A stretch of 16,594 bases of DNA from Actinomycetota bacterium (GTDB lineage Bacteria; Actinomycetota; Coriobacteriia; Anaerosomatales; JAHIQC01), in NCBI GenBank assembly GCA_018902765.1, contig JAHIQC010000124.1, positions 1-16,594 on the forward strand, in the 5' to 3' direction. The position numbers and the translations under genes were made by a program. Under the pieces are notes generated by a model, which searched no databases, was not told the origin of the DNA, and saw nothing but the letters and a program-made list of their open reading frames with translations. Every line of letters starts with the position of its first letter. Within the stretch, counting starts at the first letter, position 1. This document shows positions 3,429 through 16,594 of the stretch, piece after piece.

Positions 3429-4609
3429 TTCCCGCCTACTACGAGTTCTCTAACCGCGCGAAGATCCTCTCGGGCGAGTACGCGATCGAACACATCCCGT
3501 TTGAACTCGCGTCGATGGAGTGCGCCCGGCCGATGCTCGTGACGAACAAGCAGCTCCGTGAGCTCGGTCTCGCCGACATCGTGCTTTCCGCACTCGCCGA
3601 CGGCGGCGTGACGGTGGGTGCGATCTTTGACGACGTGCCGGTGGACTCTTCGGTCCAGGTCGTGAACGACCTCGCCGGCGCGTATCGCGAGGCCGGCTGC
3701 GACAGCCTGATAGCGGTCGGCGGCGGCTCCGTACTCGACACAGCCAAGGGCGCGAGCATCGTGCTTTCGACCGGAGCGACAGACCTGCTCGAGCACATGG
3801 GCAGCGAGGTCGTGAACGCCCGCGCGATGGTGCCGCTCATCGCGGTGCCCACGACCTCGGGTACCGGCTCTGAGGTCACCGGCGCAGCCGTCATCAAGGA
3901 CACGGAACGCCACGTGAAGATGGGCTTCGTCACGCCACACCTCGTACCCGACGTCGCCGTGCTCGACCCGCGCATGACCTTGGGACTCCCGCCTCGGCTG
4001 ACCGCCTCGACCGCGATGGACGCGCTCTGCCACGCAGTGGAGGCGTTCAGCTGCCGCCAGGCCAACCCGCTTTCCGACGCGCACGCCCGCGCCGCGATCG
4101 ACCTGTTGCGCGAATACCTGCCCGTGGCGCTGGACGATCCCAAGGACGCCACTGCCCGCCTCGCGCTCGCCAACGCCTCCTTGCTCGCGGGTGCCGCGTT
4201 CTCGAACTCGATGGTCGGCATCGTGCACGCGATGGGCCACGCATGTGGTGGGCAGTGCTCGATCGCCCACGGCGAAGCCATGGGCATCCTGCTGCCCCAT
4301 GGCATGGCCTACAACCTCGACGTGGCGGGCGAACGGTACGCCGAGCTGCTGCTCCACCTCGCGGGCTCTGAGGCCTTCGCCGCGACACCTGCCGAGGACC
4401 GGGCTGCGGCCGCCATCGGGGGCGTGCGCACACTACTCGAACTCGCCGCCGAGAAGGCGGGCATGCCCACGCGGCTCTCGGAGGTCGGCATGACTCGCGA
4501 GCAGCTTCCCGCTGTCGCCGCGCTCGCGATCAACGACGGGGCGATGTCGTTCAACCCCAAGGATGCGAGCGCAGAGGATATCCTCAGCATACTGGAGGGT
4601 GCGCTGTGA
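3425..4609 (+). CDS. Iron-containing (group III) alcohol dehydrogenase
   Basis: A 394-residue protein of normal family length that interconverts alcohols and aldehydes with NAD(P)H in the cytoplasm. The N-terminal dinucleotide-binding half carries GGGSVLD (residues 99-105) followed by TAKG, and then PTTSGTGSEVT. The C-terminal helical half carries the metal ligands seen in the FucO/AdhB family: D199, H203, H268 and H282, with H272 at the active-site position. All four ligands are present, so activity is expected. GAGGAG (3412-3417) lies 7 nt before the ATG. The gene overlaps its neighbours by 4 bp on each side. Sitting directly before an AOR, it most likely produces aldehyde for the AOR to oxidise, or reduces aldehyde formed by AOR from an acid. 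The alcohol chain length cannot be inferred. Confidence 0.93.
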   Translation: MIPAYYEFSNRAKILSGEYAIEHIPFELASMECARPMLVTNKQLRELGLADIVLSALADGGVTVGAIFDDVPVDSSVQVVNDLAGAYREAGCDSLIAVGGGSVLDTAKGASIVLSTGATDLLEHMGSEVVNARAMVPLIAVPTTSGTGSEVTGAAVIKDTERHVKMGFVTPHLVPDVAVLDPRMTLGLPPRLTASTAMDALCHAVEAFSCRQANPLSDAHARAAIDLLREYLPVALDDPKDATARLALANASLLAGAAFSNSMVGIVHAMGHACGGQCSIAHGEAMGILLPHGMAYNLDVAGERYAELLLHLAGSEAFAATPAEDRAAAAIGGVRTLLELAAEKAGMPTRLSEVGMTREQLPAVAALAINDGAMSFNPKDASAEDILSILEGAL

Positions 4610-6522
4610 AGGGCGGCTACGCTGGGCACATCCTGCGCATCGACCTGACGAGCCGCGAGGTCACCGAATACCCGTGGACCGACGCCCAGCGCCGCGCGAC
4701 ACTGGGCGGCAAGGTCATGGCCGCGCAGATCCTGTATGACCTGCTTGAGCCCGGAACCGATCCCCTCGGGCCCGAGAACGTTCTCGTGATCAGCACAGGC
4801 CCGCTCACCGGCACGGGCGCGCCCTCAAGCGCGCGGTTCAACCTCTCCGCGCTCTCGCCGCTCACCGGCATCGTCGCGTCGAGCAACTGCGGCGGTCCGT
4901 TTGGCACCTACCTCAAGAAGGCCGGCGTCGACGCGCTCGTGATCACGGGCAGCTCGGCCGATCCTGTCTGGCTCGAGGTCTCCGAGTCCGGCGTCGCCTT
5001 CCATTCTGCCGAGGAACTGCGAGGGACCCACACTTCGGCGGCCGCGGACGCCCTGTCCGCCGCTATCAGCGAGAAGTGCGGAACACTCGTGATCGGTCCG
5101 GCCGGCGAGAACCTCGTGCGCTACGCGGCCGTGCTCTCGGGTGAGCGTGCGGCCGGACGCGCGGGTCTAGGCGCGGTCATGGGCGCCAAGAACCTCAAAG
5201 GGCTTGCCGCGCACGGCTCGCTCAAGACCGAGATCGCCGATCGCGACGCGTTTCGCGAGCATGTGCGGAAGTGGTCGGCGACACTGAAGGCGCATCCGCT
5301 GACGGGCGAGATGCTTCCCACATACGGCACCGCTGGAATGCTTCCCGACATGAACAAGCTCGGGATCATCGCGACCTCCAATTACCGCCGAGGACAGTTC
5401 GATGGATTCGACGCCATCTCCGGACAAACGATGGCAAGCACCCGCCTCGTGTCCACGAGCGGATGTCTGTCCTGCCCGATCCGTTGCGCGCGCGTGGTCG
5501 AGGTCGACGGGCACAAAGTGAAAGGCCCCGAACTCGAAACGCTGGTGCTTCTGGGAAGCAATCTGGAAAACGCGGACCTCGATTCGATCTGCAGACTCAA
5601 TGTGACCCTCGACGAGCTGGGCATGGACACGATGTCTGCGGGCGTGACGGTCTCACTTGCGATGGAGCTGGCCGAGCGGGGACTTGTGGACTGGCCGCTG
5701 CGCTTCGGCGACGTGAGCGGGCTGGCGCAGCTGTTCGACGACATCGCACACCGACGCGGTATCGGCGACGAACTCGCCGATGGTTCCCGCGTTCTTGGGA
5801 TCCGCTACGGCGCGCCCGAGGCTTCCATGCAGGTCAAGGGCCTCGAGTTGGCTGCGTATGAGCCGCGCGGCGCTTGGGGCCATGCCTTGGGATACGCGAC
5901 CTCTAACCGCGGCGGGTGCCACTTGAACGGCGGCTACATGGTCGCCTTCGAGGGGCTGGGCCTGAAGATGAAGGGGCGCTCAACCCGCAGCAAGCCGGCA
6001 CTCACCGCGATGTTCCAGGACCTCATGGAGGCCGTCTCGGCAGCCGGCGGCTGTCTGTTCACGACCTACGCCGTCATCCCGGCGCCGCTCGTGCGCGGCG
6101 CCGCCGGGCCGCTGGGCAAAGTGACCGCAGCCGTCCTTGGCATCTCGAGCGGCGTGTTGCACGTGCTGCGTGCGGTACCGCGCAGCGCTCTCGGCATCCC
6201 GATGCCGCTCATCCCGCACATCCGCGCCATCGAACTGGCGACAGGCGAGAAGCTGGGCTTTGGGCGGTTCTGGGAGGTCGGCGAGCGCGGCTTTTCGCTG
6301 GAGCGGGAGCTCAACGTACGCTTCGGGGGCTCCTCGGCAGATGACACGCTACCTGGCAGGTGCCTGAACGAAAGGCTGCAGCCCGACGACCCGACCTCGG
6401 TCGTGCCCCTGGCGCGCCTGCTGCCCACGTATTATCGGCATCGCGATTGGAGCGACGCGGGCGTCCCGAACAAGCGCCTGCTGAGTCGATTGGGTATCAG
6501 GCCGAGATCGGAAACCTCATGA
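4606..6522 (+). CDS. Aldehyde:ferredoxin oxidoreductase family protein (complete)
   Basis: A 638-residue protein, close to the usual AOR length of about 600-630. It starts with KGGYAGHILRIDLTS, the typical AOR N-terminus. The N-terminal domain contains STGPLTGTGAPSSARFNLSA and GRAGLGAVMGAKNLKG. The cluster cysteines are C287, C290 and C294 (CX2CX3C, almost the numbering of Pyrococcus AOR) and C483. The first pterin motif is present as ELGMD, but the usual DxxGLC around the fourth cysteine is replaced by SAAGGC, so its substrate pocket probably differs from that of the first AOR here. The GTG start overlaps the dehydrogenase stop (GTGA) and has GGAGG upstream. It should transfer electrons from an aldehyde to ferredoxin, using a tungsten or molybdenum bis-pterin. 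It is clearly diverged from the first AOR and not a recent duplicate. Confidence 0.95.
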   Translation: MKGGYAGHILRIDLTSREVTEYPWTDAQRRATLGGKVMAAQILYDLLEPGTDPLGPENVLVISTGPLTGTGAPSSARFNLSALSPLTGIVASSNCGGPFGTYLKKAGVDALVITGSSADPVWLEVSESGVAFHSAEELRGTHTSAAADALSAAISEKCGTLVIGPAGENLVRYAAVLSGERAAGRAGLGAVMGAKNLKGLAAHGSLKTEIADRDAFREHVRKWSATLKAHPLTGEMLPTYGTAGMLPDMNKLGIIATSNYRRGQFDGFDAISGQTMASTRLVSTSGCLSCPIRCARVVEVDGHKVKGPELETLVLLGSNLENADLDSICRLNVTLDELGMDTMSAGVTVSLAMELAERGLVDWPLRFGDVSGLAQLFDDIAHRRGIGDELADGSRVLGIRYGAPEASMQVKGLELAAYEPRGAWGHALGYATSNRGGCHLNGGYMVAFEGLGLKMKGRSTRSKPALTAMFQDLMEAVSAAGGCLFTTYAVIPAPLVRGAAGPLGKVTAAVLGISSGVLHVLRAVPRSALGIPMPLIPHIRAIELATGEKLGFGRFWEVGERGFSLERELNVRFGGSSADDTLPGRCLNERLQPDDPTSVVPLARLLPTYYRHRDWSDAGVPNKRLLSRLGIRPRSETS

Positions 6523-8536: not shown

Positions 8537-10348
8537 TTAGCCGTTGCGCTGGCGCTTGCGGTCCTTCTCGCCGAGAAGCCGCTTACGCAGCCGGATGTTC
8601 TTGGGAGTGATCTCGACAAGCTCGTCGTCCTCGATGTATTCAAGGGCCTCTTCAAGCGTGAAGATCAGCGGCGGCGCCAAGACAATGCCCTTATCCGCCG
8701 AGGAAGCGCGCATGTTGCTCAGCTGCTTGGACTTGGCGACGTTGACCACGAGGTCACCTGACTTGGCGCCCTCACCAACGATCATGCCCTCGTAGCACAT
8801 GATTCCCGGTCCCACGAACAGCTTGCCGCGCTGCTGCAGGGCGTCGAGGCCGAACGCGACCGACTTGTCAGTCGACATCGCGATGAGCGAACCGTTCTGG
8901 CGTCCGCCGAGGTCGCCTCGGTAAGGGCCGTACTCGGTGAAGTGATGGAACAACGTGCCTTCGCCGCGGGTGCCGTTCAGGATGCGCGTACGCAGACCCA
9001 TGACGCCGCGAGACGGGATCTTGAACTCGAGGTGCACGTGCTCGTCGCGCTGGATCATGTCGGTCATCTCGCCACCGGCAGATCCAAAGATCTCGATGAC
9101 CTTGCCCGCGTACTCAGACGGGACGTCCACAACAGCCTGCTCGATAGGCTCGAGCTTCTTGCCGTGATCGTCGGTCTTGAGAATCACGCGCGGACGGCCG
9201 ACCCGGAACTCGTAGCCTTCGCGACGCATGGTCTCCATGAGAACCGACAGGTGCAGTACTCCTCGGCCGGCGACTTCCATACCGGTCTTGTCCGGAAGCT
9301 CGGAGATGTTCATCGAGATGTTCGACTCGGCCTCGCGGAACAAACGCTCCTTGATCTGGCGGCCTCCGACGATATCGCCCTCCTGGCCCACGAGCGGGCT
9401 TGTGGAGGCCTCAAAGACGATGGACATCGTGGGTTCTTCGACATGGATCGGAGCCAGCGTGATCGGATCGATACGGCAGGTGAACATGTCGCCGATGTCG
9501 CAGTCCTCGACGCCCACAACGGCACAGATGTCGCCGGCGTGCGCGGACTGCGCTTCCAGACGACCCATACCCTCGAAGGTGAAGAGCTGCTTGACGTTGG
9601 CCTGGTAGCGGCTGCCGTCGTTCTTGATGACAAGGATGCGCTCGCCGGAGTTGATCGTGCCCGAGAAGATGCGCCCGATGCCGATACGACCGACGAAGTT
9701 TGAGTAGTCGATGGTGCAGACCTGCATGGCGACCGGGCCATCCGGGTCGACGTTCGGTGCGGGGATGTGATCGATGATGGCGTCGAGCAAGGGCAGCATA
9801 TCGTCGTTGCCGTCGTCGGGATCGAGGCGCGCGTAGCCATTGACGGCGCTCGTGTAGACGATGGGGAAATCGAGCTGTGCGTCGTTGGCTCCCAGGTCGA
9901 CCATGAGGTCAAAGACCATATCCACGACTTCTGCGGGACGCGCGCCCGGACGGTCGATCTTGTTGATGACGACCATCGGCTTCAGGCCGTGCTCGAGTGC
10001 GTGACGCAGCACGAAGCGGGTCTGAGGCATCGCGCCTTCGAACGCATCGACGATGAGCAGACAACCGTCGGCCATCTTGAGCACGCGCTCGACCTCGCCG
10101 CCGAAGTCCGCGTGGCCGGGAGTGTCGATGACGTTGATCTTGACGTCGCGATGACGGATGGAGATGTTCTTGGCAAGGATGGTGATGCCGCGCTCGCGCT
10201 CCTGATCGTTGGAGTCCAGGACCCGCTCGGCGACCTCCTGGTTTTCGCGGAACACGTGAGTGGTTTGCAGGAGCCGGTCCACGAGCGTCGTCTTGCCGTG
10301 GTCGACGTGAGCGATGATGGCGATGTTACGTACGTCGTTCTGAAGCAC
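8537..10348 (-). CDS. typA: Translational GTPase TypA/BipA
   Basis: A ribosome-associated GTPase of the elongation-factor family, involved in 50S assembly and stress adaptation. The GTPase domain has [10 protein letters not shown] (residues 13-22), the switch I segment [21 protein letters not shown] and NKIDRP. The EF-G-like domains III/V and the BipA-specific C-terminal domain follow, with [21 protein letters not shown] and [16 protein letters not shown] being diagnostic. Its length of 603 residues is normal. GTG at 10348 is chosen because GGAG lies 8 nt upstream; an in-frame GTG at 10357 would add three residues but overlaps that site and has no good Shine-Dalgarno sequence of its own. The rich supply of open frames on the opposite strand is a codon-bias shadow. 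Confidence 0.97.
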
Positions 10349-10364
10349 TTGGGTCACTCCGGTC

Positions 10365-12946: not shown

Positions 12947-14131
12947 ATGGCGCATGTGCGCTCGCTGTTCTTCAACGGCCCGCTCAATGAGGTCGAGGAC
13001 AAATCGCTGGCCGCCTTCAAGAAGGGCCGTCCTTCCGAGGTCATCTGGAACATCACTAACCGGTGCAACCTGCTGTGCGAGCATTGCTACATGTCCGCCG
13101 ACGGGCACGCGCTGCCAGACCAGCTCACCGACGAGGAGACCATAGACCTGGTCAACCAGATGGCGGATGCGGGCGTACCGCTGCTGTTCCTCACGGGTGG
13201 CGAGCCGTTCATGCGCCCGAACTTCTGGGAGATTCTCGAGACCGCAAGCGCGCGAGGCATGCGCGTCACTGTCTCGACGAACTGTACGTTCATCGACCGC
13301 GACGTCGCCAAGCGCCTGCTGGCCAACGGAGTCGGCTACATCGGCACCTCGCTCTACGGCCCCGCCGAGTTCCACGATGCTCTCGTGAAGGTGCCGGGCA
13401 CGCGCGACCGGGTCATTGAATCCATCAAGATCCTGCGGTCCGAGGGTGTCCGCGTCGCGCTCAAGAGCGCCGTCAGCGTCGACACGTGGCCCCACATCTA
13501 CGACCTCATCCAAGAGGCCAAGGATCTGGACTGCGGACTCATCTACCTGTGCGACCTCATCACGTCGGGTCGCTCCGAAGGTGAGTCTGACGGTCGCATC
13601 ACCGCCGACCAGTGGCGCGAGCTGGCCGCCTTCATCGCCGACGACATCACTGACCCGAACTCCACGCTCGAGTACGACATCGGCGCGATGCCCTCATTCA
13701 TCCCCTACGTCGCCGAGCTGCTCATCGCCAAGGGCTACGACCTGTCCCGCGGACTGGAACGCCTCAAGATCATGAGCGCATGCCCCGTGGGCAAGGGCCA
13801 CATGAACATCAACTCCGAAGGCGGCGTCATGCCCTGCCAGTTCGCCCAGGACTGGACGGTCGGCAACCTGCGCGATATGTCGATCGTTGAGGCGACGCGC
13901 GAGCTGTTCAAGCTCGCCGAGGGCGAAACGACCGGGACGTGCTCGAGCGAAAACTGCGAGTACGTGCAGATCTGCCGGGGCTGCCGCACCAAGGCCTGGC
14001 ACGAGTTCGGAGATCCTTTTGCCGAGGACACGACGTGCATCCTGCACGCATCCGGCGACCGAGCTCCGCTCGCTGAGCGCATCAACGCCAAGCGCGCAGC
14101 GGTCCCCTGCGGAGGACCGACCTGCGGGTAG
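12947..14131 (+). CDS. Radical SAM/SPASM-domain enzyme
   Basis: A 394-residue radical SAM protein. The SAM-binding [4Fe-4S] ligands are C40, C44 and C47 (NRCNLLCEHCY), and GGEP is at 84-87. The C-terminal part has a SPASM-like cysteine set for auxiliary clusters: C279, C297, C332, C337, C343, C346 (CxxC at 343-346) and C364, plus two more cysteines in the extreme tail (388, 393). The layout resembles peptide-maturing SPASM enzymes, the haem-pathway enzymes NirJ/AhbC, and the radical SAM maturases reported next to tungsten oxidoreductase genes. With two AOR genes about 6 kb away, that last option is attractive but unproven. ATG at 12947 is chosen for GGAGG (12934-12938), 8 nt upstream. The in-frame extension to an ATG at 12782 crosses the promoter region, has a different base composition and is not conserved-looking. 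Confidence 0.88.
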   Translation: MAHVRSLFFNGPLNEVEDKSLAAFKKGRPSEVIWNITNRCNLLCEHCYMSADGHALPDQLTDEETIDLVNQMADAGVPLLFLTGGEPFMRPNFWEILETASARGMRVTVSTNCTFIDRDVAKRLLANGVGYIGTSLYGPAEFHDALVKVPGTRDRVIESIKILRSEGVRVALKSAVSVDTWPHIYDLIQEAKDLDCGLIYLCDLITSGRSEGESDGRITADQWRELAAFIADDITDPNSTLEYDIGAMPSFIPYVAELLIAKGYDLSRGLERLKIMSACPVGKGHMNINSEGGVMPCQFAQDWTVGNLRDMSIVEATRELFKLAEGETTGTCSSENCEYVQICRGCRTKAWHEFGDPFAEDTTCILHASGDRAPLAERINAKRAAVPCGGPTCG

Positions 14132-14170
14132 CAACCCGCGGTCCGGCGCACACACCACGAATAGAACGCA

Positions 14171-14202
14171 GAGAGGGCCGGCCCAGAAGGGTCGGTCCTC
14201 TC
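14171..14202. terminator. Terminator-like hairpin after radical SAM gene
   Basis: A 13-bp stem (14171-14183 with 14190-14202, two G-U pairs when read on the + strand) closes a 6-nt loop, CAGAAG, 39 nt after the radical SAM stop. There is no T run on either side. It could serve transcripts from both directions because the flanking genes converge. An outer ACGCA/TGCGT pair may extend it. Confidence 0.6.
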
Positions 14203-14240
14203 CCATCGCTGCGTGACAGCGACATCTTTGCTGTGCGGGT

Positions 14241-14283
14241 AGACGCCACGGTGAGGCGTGTTTTCGCCTCGACGCCGCCGTCT
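14241..14283 (-). terminator. Hairpin directly after the candidate small ORF
   Basis: An inner 6-bp stem, GAGGCG/CGCCTC (14253-14258 with 14265-14270), has an A-rich loop on the - strand. It lies inside an outer AGACG/CGTCT pairing (14241-14245 with 14279-14283) that begins at the stop codon of the small - strand ORF. Read on the - strand it could end transcription or protect the 3' end of a small mRNA. There is no T run, so this is tentative. Confidence 0.4.
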
Positions 14284-14350
14284 AGGAGGTCACGACCTCC
14301 GCTTCGATCGCAGCGGTCTCGACCAGCGCAACGATGCTTGTACTACTCAA
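14282..14350 (-). CDS. Candidate 22-residue peptide gene with an extreme Shine-Dalgarno sequence
   Basis: I do not recognise this peptide. On the - strand, AAAGGAGGAGGTGATCCAGC (14371-14352) precedes a TTG at 14350. Fifteen of these bases (14366-14352) are complementary to the conserved bacterial 16S rRNA 3' end, far more than in any other gene in the window. The TTG opens a 22-codon frame encoding MSSTSIVALVETAAIEA followed by EVVTS and a TAG stop. A hairpin follows the stop at once. The peptide has no cysteine, no signal peptide and an acidic C-terminal half. The gene lies 85 nt downstream of the DUF362 gene on the same strand and converges on the radical SAM/SPASM gene. It could be a RiPP-type precursor or another small regulatory peptide. 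The strong ribosome site is seen; a coding role is inference, and the TTG start and 10-nt spacing are weaknesses. Confidence 0.4.
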   Translation of the reverse strand: MSSTSIVALVETAAIEAEVVTS

Positions 14351-14435
14351 CGCTGGATCACCTCCTCCTTTAGTACTCGGCCGCCCGATCGCGACCTCGG
14401 AATTCTCCGTAACGACCTGCTAGCGAGTGCCATGC

Positions 14436-15608
14436 CTACTTTCGGTGAATCAACCTGCCGAGGAGCGGCGTGCGCACCTTGATCGCCTTGTCCGGGCACA
14501 TCTCCTGACAGCAGTAGCAGCGAATGCAACGCGAGTAGGTGTGGACCGGAACGTGGCCGTCCTTGGCACCACAGGGAGTGGCCCAGTCGACCGCCTTGGG
14601 CTCCACGGGGCACACCTTCACGCACGTGCCGCACTTGGTGCAAAGCTCGGGCACGATGTAGGGCTTGGGCACGATCATATTGCGTGCGAACGGACCTGCG
14701 TCGCCGCGACCCGTGGTGGACTGCGGCGAGCGGTTCACGTTGTAGTCCTCGGCGATGAAGGGCTCGATCGGATCGCCGACGAGCTCGACGTCCTCGTAGC
14801 TACCGAGCCCGTACTGCTGGCCGTAGACGTTCGTGCCGACCATCGCGGGATCGAGCGCCATCATGCGGCACATCGTCGCGTCGAGTGCCACCGGATCGGC
14901 CGAGATCAGGATCACGTTCATCTCGCGAGCATCACCACCGCGGGGCCCGTTGCCCTCCATCGCGGTGATGCCATCCATGATGTAGAGACGCGGCTTGAGT
15001 GCGAGGTTGAGGTCCACGAGCATCTGGCTGAAGCGATCGATGTCGGGCATCCGCACATGAAACTCACCCTTACGCGTCCCGACGATGCACCCGAACTGGT
15101 TCTTGACCGCACCGGTGACGCGAGCCATGCCGTGGGTCTTGAACTTGGGCAGCGAGATGATCCCATCGGCATCGAGCGCGCCGTTGGCAAAGAAGAACTG
15201 CTTGATGAGGTGGCCTTCAGGAAACGAGATCTGTCTGCCTTCGGTGAACTCCGCGAACGGAATGTTCAGTCGATCGGCCGGCTCACCCAGACCGGACTTG
15301 CGCGCGGCGTGCTCCGGGTTGCCAAAGCCCGGCGAGTCACCGTACTTCACGTGGACGGCGTGCGCCTGCAAGTGCCGGGCGACCGCGGCGAACACAGCGG
15401 GGTGAGTTGTGACCGCCGCTGCAGGTGCAGAACCCACAAGCACGTTCGGCTTGAGCAGGATCTCCTCGGAAGGTGAGGCGAAGGCGGTTATCCCGCCGAG
15501 GAGCTCAAGTCCTCGGCCGACGGCGTCAAAGACCGCGGACTCGTCGTAGGATTCGCACCGGATGATGGCGACTTTCGAGGACATAGCGGCTCCATTGATT
15601 GTGATCAT
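14436..15608 (-). CDS. DUF362 protein with C-terminal 2x[4Fe-4S] ferredoxin domain
   Basis: A 390-residue protein. The N-terminal 300 residues match DUF362 (SSKVAIIRCESYD, LLKPNVLVGSAP, VKYGDSPG, SLPKFKTHGMARVTGAVKNQFG). The C-terminal 70 residues carry two ferredoxin-type motifs, CTKCGTCVKVCP (323-334) and CIRCYCCQEMCP (361-372), with an insertion of 26 residues between them. DUF362 proteins with such tails are common in anaerobes and are thought to be cytoplasmic iron-sulfur electron-transfer or cluster-handling proteins; no reaction is established. ATG at 15608 has GGAG 5 nt upstream. An equally good ATG at 15584, also with GGAG at 5 nt, would start directly at MSSKVAII, the usual family start, and give 382 residues. 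It is divergent from the secreted CxxCH gene. Confidence 0.9.
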   Translation of the reverse strand: MITINGAAMSSKVAIIRCESYDESAVFDAVGRGLELLGGITAFASPSEEILLKPNVLVGSAPAAAVTTHPAVFAAVARHLQAHAVHVKYGDSPGFGNPEHAARKSGLGEPADRLNIPFAEFTEGRQISFPEGHLIKQFFFANGALDADGIISLPKFKTHGMARVTGAVKNQFGCIVGTRKGEFHVRMPDIDRFSQMLVDLNLALKPRLYIMDGITAMEGNGPRGGDAREMNVILISADPVALDATMCRMMALDPAMVGTNVYGQQYGLGSYEDVELVGDPIEPFIAEDYNVNRSPQSTTGRGDAGPFARNMIVPKPYIVPELCTKCGTCVKVCPVEPKAVDWATPCGAKDGHVPVHTYSRCIRCYCCQEMCPDKAIKVRTPLLGRLIHRK

Positions 15609-15815: not shown

Positions 15816-16594
15816 TTGAGGAAACTCAGACTCGGCGCGATATTGGTGCTGGCGGCAGTGGGCTTTTCGGCCATCTATGCCTCTGGCGCTCACGCTTTTC
15901 CCACACGGACTACTCCGTGTAGTGGGTGCCACAGCGGGGCAAACATCCCCGTGACCGCCACGCTGGCAACGACTGTCGGCACGTCGGCTACCTACAATGT
16001 CAGCGCTCCTGGTGCCGACTCGATCGCCGTGTTCGACGGCAACACCAAACTTGTCACCATTACAGCGGCGTCCGGCCAGTTCTCTGTCACTACGGGCAAG
16101 ACCTACAGCGTCTTTGCAGTAGCCGGCCCGGGCACGGGTGACGGTCTCGGCAGCACGAGTGTCAGCCCCGCAGCTCCGGTACCGGTGGACACCACCGCTC
16201 CGGTGACGACCTCGAACGCGGTTGCCACCTACGTCTCCTCGGCGAGCATCACGCTTGCAGCGACTGACGCGGGCTCAGGTGTCGCGAACACGTACTACCG
16301 CCTCGATAGCGGCGCGCAGGTCACGGGTCGGACGATCAACGTCTCGACGCTGGGCTCGCACACGATCGAGTTTTGGTCGGTCGACGTGGCCGGCAACACC
16401 GAGACCCACAAGACCGCGAGCTTCACGATCACAGCTCCGGTGCCGGTGGACGCCACCGCTCCGGTGACGACGTCAAACGCGGTTGCCACCTACGTCTCCT
16501 CGGCGAGCATCACGCTTGCAGCGACTGACGCGGGCTCAGGTGTCGCGAACACGTACTACCGCCTCGATAGCGGCGCGCAGGTCACGGGTCGGAC
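15816..16594 (+). CDS. Secreted CxxCH protein with OmpL47/Ig-like repeats, 3' end outside window
   Basis: The gene begins with TTG, with GGAGG (15802-15806) 9 nt upstream; 259 residues are visible and the frame runs off the window. Residues 1-27 form a signal peptide with a basic N-terminus, a hydrophobic core (AILVLAAVGF) and an AHA cleavage site before F28. Immediately after it is a single c-type haem motif, C35-S-G-C38-H39. A Ser/Thr-rich beta domain follows, then repeats of 87 residues beginning at residues 120 and 207. The repeats contain DAGSGVANTYYRLDSG and HTIEFWSVDVAGN, typical of OmpL47-type beta/Ig-like repeats in exported proteins. The protein is probably exported and surface-associated, perhaps in electron transfer or adhesion; one haem motif at the mature N-terminus is the only redox element seen. 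Unusual points are the TTG start and the near-identical repeats. Confidence 0.88.
   Translation, partial: MRKLRLGAILVLAAVGFSAIYASGAHAFPTRTTPCSGCHSGANIPVTATLATTVGTSATYNVSAPGADSIAVFDGNTKLVTITAASGQFSVTTGKTYSVFAVAGPGTGDGLGSTSVSPAAPVPVDTTAPVTTSNAVATYVSSASITLAATDAGSGVANTYYRLDSGAQVTGRTINVSTLGSHTIEFWSVDVAGNTETHKTASFTITAPVPVDATAPVTTSNAVATYVSSASITLAATDAGSGVANTYYRLDSGAQVTGR
16173..16594 (+). repeat. 261-bp tandem repeat inside the CxxCH protein gene
   Basis: A 261-bp unit (87 codons) begins at 16173 and again at 16434; the second copy is cut by the window end after 161 bp. Over those 161 bp only four bases differ, and the last 113 or so are identical. The in-frame period and near-identity indicate recent duplication or ongoing homogenisation, so copy number may vary between strains and the region may be prone to assembly collapse. 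Confidence 0.92.

Follow-up and report, generated by a model that had tools for sequence, protein, structure and literature searches.

A predicted small RNA gene of Anaerosomatales with a probably translated micro-ORF and a ribosome-binding site complementary to 15 nucleotides of the 16S rRNA tail

Dual-function small RNAs such as RNAIII/hld and SgrS/SgrT are stand-alone structured transcripts with a promoter and a terminator that also carry a short translated open reading frame (ORF), and in leader-peptide attenuators a micro-ORF overlaps helices that are mutually exclusive. A report on Staphylococcus aureus describes an extended Shine-Dalgarno (SD) interaction: the extension seen consists of two further base pairs, and about 30% of initiation sites are predicted to have it (PMC13009471). 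The element described here resembles dual-function RNAs in that it has, as far as its sequence tells, a promoter and a terminator of its own, and an ORF that genome comparison places under selection. It differs from them in a peptide that is weakly or not conserved, in an SD with about 15 bases of complementarity to the 16S tail, and in an ORF segment that forms a long-range helix at the expected front of the ribosome. With the attenuators it shares a micro-ORF overlapping mutually exclusive helices; unlike them, it has no common downstream gene and is apparently a separate transcription unit. As in S. aureus, where this is described for a GUG start among others (PMC13009471), the pairing extends towards the start codon, whereas the element has about 15 pairs, in one gene per genome.

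The window (the whole stretch of DNA that was analysed, 16,594 nucleotides) belongs to the order Anaerosomatales, from which cultured members were first reported as recently as 2022 (PMC9686372). A sequence-only reading of the gap between two genes had noted on the minus strand an SD region complementary to 15 nt of the 16S rRNA 3' end, then a TTG, 22 codons, a stop and a hairpin. All parts are present as described, inverted repeats being seen downstream of the TAG when the minus strand of the window is read directly, and the complementarity is exact over 15 nt since six 16S 3' ends from the order are identical. The features of the locus are these:

14163..14411, minus strand: the predicted RNA, with ends placed about 12 nt after the -12 element and just past the terminator hairpin
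14422..14437, minus strand: promoter-like AGGCATGGCACTCGCT of the sigma-54 -24 GG / -12 GC type, overlapping the end of the DUF362 gene
14398..14409, minus strand: 5' hairpin P1 (CGGA-GAAT-TCCG), from folding
14366-14352, minus strand: extended SD AGGAGGTGATCCAGC, exact 15-nt complement of the 16S 3' tail (duplex -33.8 kcal/mol)
14282..14350, minus strand: micro-ORF MSSTSIVALVETAAIEAEVVTS, with TTG at 14350-14348, 22 codons and TAG at 14284-14282, intact in 36/36 elements counted
14328..14336, minus strand: P3 5' arm CATCGTTGC, ORF nt 15-23
14276..14281, minus strand: P5 5' arm ACGGCG, directly after the stop
14216..14221, minus strand: P5 3' arm CGCTGT, the stretch ahead of the P3 3' arm
14204..14212, minus strand: P3 3' arm GCAGCGATG; three P3 pairs have compensated changes, in four genomes
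14206..14222, minus strand: rival local hairpin TCGCTG / CAGCGA, which uses the 3' arm of P3
14171..14202, minus strand: terminator-like hairpin GAGAGGACCGACCC...GGGCCGGCCCTCTC with a weak T-run; 7/11 main-helix pairs are changed on both sides
12947..14131, plus strand: radical SAM/SPASM enzyme gene (context; Pfam Radical_SAM and SPASM)
14436..15602, minus strand: upstream DUF362 / 4Fe-4S gene (context; Pfam)

The small gene had originally been placed in about 130 bp. The gene itself proved genuine and its extent had to be revised, as the conserved unit covers about 250 nt and includes a promoter-like sequence of its own; the aligned copies run in the order promoter-like sequence, hairpin, SD, ORF, long-range helices and terminator. 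Loss of the ribosome site, the frame or the peptide from close relatives with both flanking genes had been named as an outcome that would speak against it: among the carriers in the order, site and frame are kept, and the peptide is not clearly conserved. Matches to the gap DNA occur in 31 of 61 genomes, counting that of the window, and a covariance model (R1) matches positions 14144-14415 with an E-value of 6.7e-52, the window being one of its 20 training sequences. R1 detects the element in 37 of the 69 Anaerosomatales genomes; the 20 copies from which it was built match by construction, and 17 of the 37 carriers lie outside this training set. The raw tally at an E-value of 0.001 is 39/69, from which two weak hits were left out, and weak hits in G051, G059 and G067 (25-27 bits) were set aside. 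The copies at contig ends in G033 (C70) and G068 (C218) were regarded as duplicates, and the divergent copy of G014 (66 bits) was omitted from the ORF counts, which cover 36 elements. About half of the order is without a detectable copy, the complete single-contig genome G013 among them; the sole genome of the same genus, G001, is uninformative about the presence of the element because its contig stops inside the enzyme gene. Across 346 genomes of the class, order included, R1 gave only two weak partial hits outside the order (G196 and G216; 23-28 bits), searches over many genomes using stricter filters by which weak matches are lost. When the GTDB genome collection was scanned with a sequence pattern, 21 contigs matched, apparently all from Anaerosomatales carriers of the element, one being labelled Aeromicrobium; a pattern scan of viral contigs returned none. 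In the window no Rfam match exceeds the gathering threshold, four sub-threshold matches falling in 14100-14500, and no title or abstract opening on this RNA was met in a literature search that reached few subscription papers. A tmRNA identity was considered and rejected, with ARAGORN calling no gene in the window. Judged by these comparisons, the gap holds the gene of a translated, structured, order-specific RNA; we are highly confident that this gene exists and is under selection for translation, and it is probably transcribed.

The promoter-like sequence departs from the sigma-54 consensus, TGGCACG-N4-TTGCT, and matches it at 8-10 of 12 positions. Of the 35 elements with sequence in this region, 33 carry it at -70 to -74 relative to the SD; in G014 its position is -57, and G015 is without it. 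The pattern GG-N10-GC alone is common in GC-rich DNA, so that the weight comes from the fixed place together with the 8-10/12 matches. The Sigma54_DBD domain is found above its cut-off in 58 of 61 genomes and was not found in the window's own assembly, which is 73% complete.

The 16S 3' end reads GGCTGGATCACCTCCTTTCTA in the Anaerosomatales genome G013; the E. coli 16S tail also contains GGATCACCTCC. The 15-mer occurs a single time in the window's own 2.09 Mb assembly, and among the 69 genomes of the order it has 29 occurrences in 27 genomes versus none for a reversed-pattern control. Six of the 29, in G003, G008, G011, G013, G032 and G050, are not in the element, each of them being the 16S gene itself; the remaining 23, in 21 genomes, are within the element or its contig-end copies. 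An exact 15-mer is present in 21 of the 37 carriers, and the other 16 have at least one change, several of them C to T, which gives G-U pairs. Duplex energies between the SD and the 16S tail span -26.3 to -37.7 kcal/mol over the 37 elements (median -33.0). All of 361 called comparison genes, each scored with its best alternative start, are weaker than the elements, the best reaching -24.5 and the median -13.8 kcal/mol. In predicted folds of the free RNA, about 65% of the SD is paired (median), later bases of the ORF being its most frequent partner (17/36). For about half of the 22-codon class, the commonest predicted partner is GCGCTGGTC (ORF nt 22-30 of this class; window 14321-14329), an ORF stretch that resembles the 16S tail. 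The 13-codon class does not have this stretch; in some of its members, the SD is predicted to pair with CCTC near the stop.

The RNA of the window has a predicted fold of -117.7 kcal/mol (z -4.16), and none of 200 shuffled sequences was as stable. Over 37 sequences, 12 of 27 pairs are changed on both sides, with 97.6% of cells paired, against a shuffle mean of 4.0 (0/500 as high) and values of 2 to 6 for slid controls; the pair counts lean towards the model's structure, as the alignment (A5) was fitted to it. Seven of the 12 doubly changed pairs lie in the main terminator helix, and the terminator could form in both states of the RNA, the one with P3 and the one with the local hairpin. The latter is nearly invariant and consequently gains no covariation support of its own. 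An automatic best-stem search found P1 with at least 4 pairs in 34/37 elements, with 3 pairs in two and without an anchor in one, a few of these stems, for example that of G014, being probably due to chance. The terminator-like hairpin may also end the convergent enzyme gene.

The intact ORFs comprise 22 codons in 20 genomes and 13 codons in 16 genomes. They start with TTG (21 elements), GTG (11) or ATG (4), and end with TAG (28), TGA (5) or TAA (3). Five of the 33 distinct ORFs have a G at the second stop position, all of them with A at the third and none reading TGG (p 2.4e-4, a value that assumes independent sequences and is weakened by their relatedness). The other two frames contain stops in 28/36 and 28/36 elements; frame 0 is open by the manner of its choice, since the scripts picked an NTG that lies 9-23 nt downstream of where the SD core begins and gives 22 or 13 codons, a rule that favours intact frames. 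Comparison of the copies supports an RNA gene whose start, stop and frame are under selection, and likewise the match to the 16S tail and the pairing of P3 and P5.

The leading edge of an initiating ribosome lies at about +15/+16, the toeprint position. In 36/36 elements, nt 15 is the first ORF base of P3, with an SD-to-start spacing that is one base longer in four, this constancy depending on the ORF start chosen by the script. In predicted folding, P3 has a probability of at least 0.5 in 16/36 free RNAs and in 29/36 when the stretch from the SD to nt 14 is forced to be single-stranded; in the controls, this number is 22/36 when an equal stretch upstream of the SD is blocked and 13/36 when the later ORF is blocked. 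As the upstream block also raises P3, the docking effect is only partly specific. P3 remains below 0.5 despite an occupied start in 7/36 (G015, G019, G027, G031, G040, G046 and G059), near zero in four of them. With the front of the ORF occupied, the local hairpin is predicted at 0.5 or above in 30/36 and below 0.5 in 6/36, the loss of P3 in this state being built into the constraint.

These data lend themselves to a model in which a 30S subunit would dock via the near-complete complement of the 16S tail. While the ribosome occupies the start codon, P3 would form between the distant 3' arm and ORF bases 15-23, which lie just ahead of the expected leading edge; the elongating ribosome would then melt P3, and the 3' arm would move to the local hairpin beside the terminator. 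The act and the position of translation, more than the peptide, would set the shape of the RNA, which would in turn govern an action in trans or its stability. The whole would be an independent small RNA, probably driven by sigma-54. We give an even chance to the complete reading, that is, an independent, structured, translated small RNA with a regulatory role that works by reading the position of the ribosome; of its parts, sigma-54 control is probable from the promoter matches, and structural switching would accord with the folding predictions. If true, a maximal docking site, a reading frame and a front-of-ribosome helix would be kept more strictly than the peptide, and the element would offer a natural test of ribosome position, instead of a protein product, as regulatory signal.

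The same features could serve to trap ribosomes, a reading that we hold to be a minor possibility: the over-long SD would slow release, P3 would block the way, and ribosomes or 30S subunits would be parked under sigma-54 conditions. There is a small likelihood, too, that the RNA senses and holds the initiating ribosome as an RNA-based hibernation or dosage device, reshaping when the ribosome leaves. A 16S pairing energy beyond that of all 361 genes, a P3 placed exactly at the expected front of the initiating ribosome, and TTG or GTG starts in 32/36 elements agree with trapping, whereas the retained stop and codon length mean that ribosomes must often reach the stop, and a single-copy gene would presumably need very high expression to titrate ribosomes. 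That the 22- or 13-residue peptide is itself the product acting in the cell, as in an ordinary small-protein gene, fits the conservation of the ORF in 36/36 and the 13-codon class, in which the nonsynonymous to synonymous ratio is 0.60 in frame 0 (2.38 and 1.00 in the shifted frames) and the variability per codon position (0.09/0.07/0.14) shows some third-position excess, so that some constraint on the peptide is possible. In the 22-codon class, however, the ratio is 1.33 (0.55 and 0.74 in the shifted frames) and there is no third-position excess (0.25/0.21/0.18); all these ratios rest on few, RNA-constrained codons, and those of the shifted frames vary as well (0.55 to 2.38). Moreover, 9 of the 22 codons, and the residues they encode, are absent in 16/36 elements, and the near-invariant residues are Ile6-Ala7 (ATC GCT, in helix P3) and a Glu (GAG) near the end, the best conserved codons being among those that pair in P3. 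Type I toxin mRNAs are recognised by a conserved hydrophobic toxin together with an antisense RNA, and the peptide here is not clearly conserved. As the amino acids are not clearly conserved in the manner of a protein, translation seems to matter more than the peptide, and a small-protein gene appears similarly unlikely. The opposite proposal, a non-translated small RNA whose ORF is a by-product of RNA conservation, would explain the strong conservation of the SD and P3 at the RNA level; it is quite improbable given start and stop codons that vary within their classes and other frames that usually contain stops.

The genomic neighbourhood bears on two further explanations. SPASM-type modification had been suggested in the sequence-only reading, with the ORF encoding a precursor peptide of the radical SAM/SPASM enzyme next to it. 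The two do adjoin in the window, and they lie within 7.5 kb of each other in all 16 genomes that have both on the same contig (distances of 4 to 7,500 bp; within 355 bp in 7 and over 2 kb in 9), the other 5 of the 21 genomes with both having them on different contigs. Nevertheless, among 61 genomes, some of them incomplete, 32 have the element, 35 have an orthologue of the enzyme and 21 have both; 11 of the 32 carriers are without the enzyme and 14 of the 35 enzyme carriers are without the RNA, so that presence of one is not significantly associated with that of the other (Fisher p = 0.20). The arguments against its own proposal that this reading had raised, convergent orientation and lack of Cys, Trp or Tyr, are borne out in the genomes compared: the RNA is always on the strand opposite to the enzyme in the same-contig genomes, and among the 33 distinct ORFs, whose middle is variable, none of these three residues is conserved. 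A role as precursor peptide is thus extremely doubtful, and we read the proximity of RNA and enzyme as old synteny. For the enzyme, none of the best 25 of 71 matching NCBIfam models reaches its cut-off. A cis-acting leader or attenuator of a downstream gene would be suggested by the micro-ORF and the mutually exclusive helices. Yet flanking genes differ among the loci, the next called gene is convergent in 18/30, and in the 12 co-directional loci a single family recurs, in 3 of them (downstream genes were called with a simple purpose-made gene caller). With a next gene that is convergent or mostly unrelated, a cis-regulated gene is unlikely, and since the terminator pairs fit either state, we regard attenuation as very unlikely.

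Elsewhere in the window, aldehyde ferredoxin oxidoreductase-like genes occupy 3-1604 (identified by eye) and 4606-6522 (by Pfam), and the stretch between them carries MoaD/ThiF-like genes, recognised by eye, and an iron alcohol dehydrogenase identified by Pfam. A TypA/BipA-like GTPase gene was recognised by eye at 8537-10357; its family is represented 11 times among the element loci retrieved, so that the neighbourhood looks old. Positions 15819-16594 hold the start of a gene with a CxxCH motif and, behind it, a repeat (by eye about 260 bp) that is cut off by the contig end; this region has no Pfam match.

A scan of 10 genomes for the promoter motif gave 18 sites versus 5 for a reversed control, those other than the element and a second locus lying in or before unrelated genes. 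This second locus, R2, was reached via the scan and would encode an RNA some 110 nt long, with a sigma-54-type promoter of textbook form (TGGCACG-N4-TTGCT-like), a C-rich, anti-Shine-Dalgarno-like stretch similar to UCCUCCCCCC and a strong terminator. The element itself points to a possible sigma-54 small-RNA regulon in Anaerosomatales. R2 resembles the RNA of the window in promoter type and in a GCGACCCGC-like stretch seen by eye in both. It differs from it in its length (about 110 versus about 250 nt), its richness in C and its occurrence, with matches in 67/69 genomes of the order versus 37/69. No Rfam match was obtained for five R2 loci. R2 was also considered as a pairing partner of the RNA's ribosome site and rejected, since pairing of this strength is seen at 5 to 69% of 359 gene sites in the 14 genomes covered, each represented by one R2 copy (17 had both loci available, and in three of them the script did not locate R2). 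Two or more R2 matches are present in 52 genomes, and one weak hit lies elsewhere in the class. Examples are L168, L170, L171, L174 and L176 (in G017, G027, G042, G039 and G032, respectively), and the window's own genome carries R2 at G000:C243:1552-1686 and C266:2221-2358.
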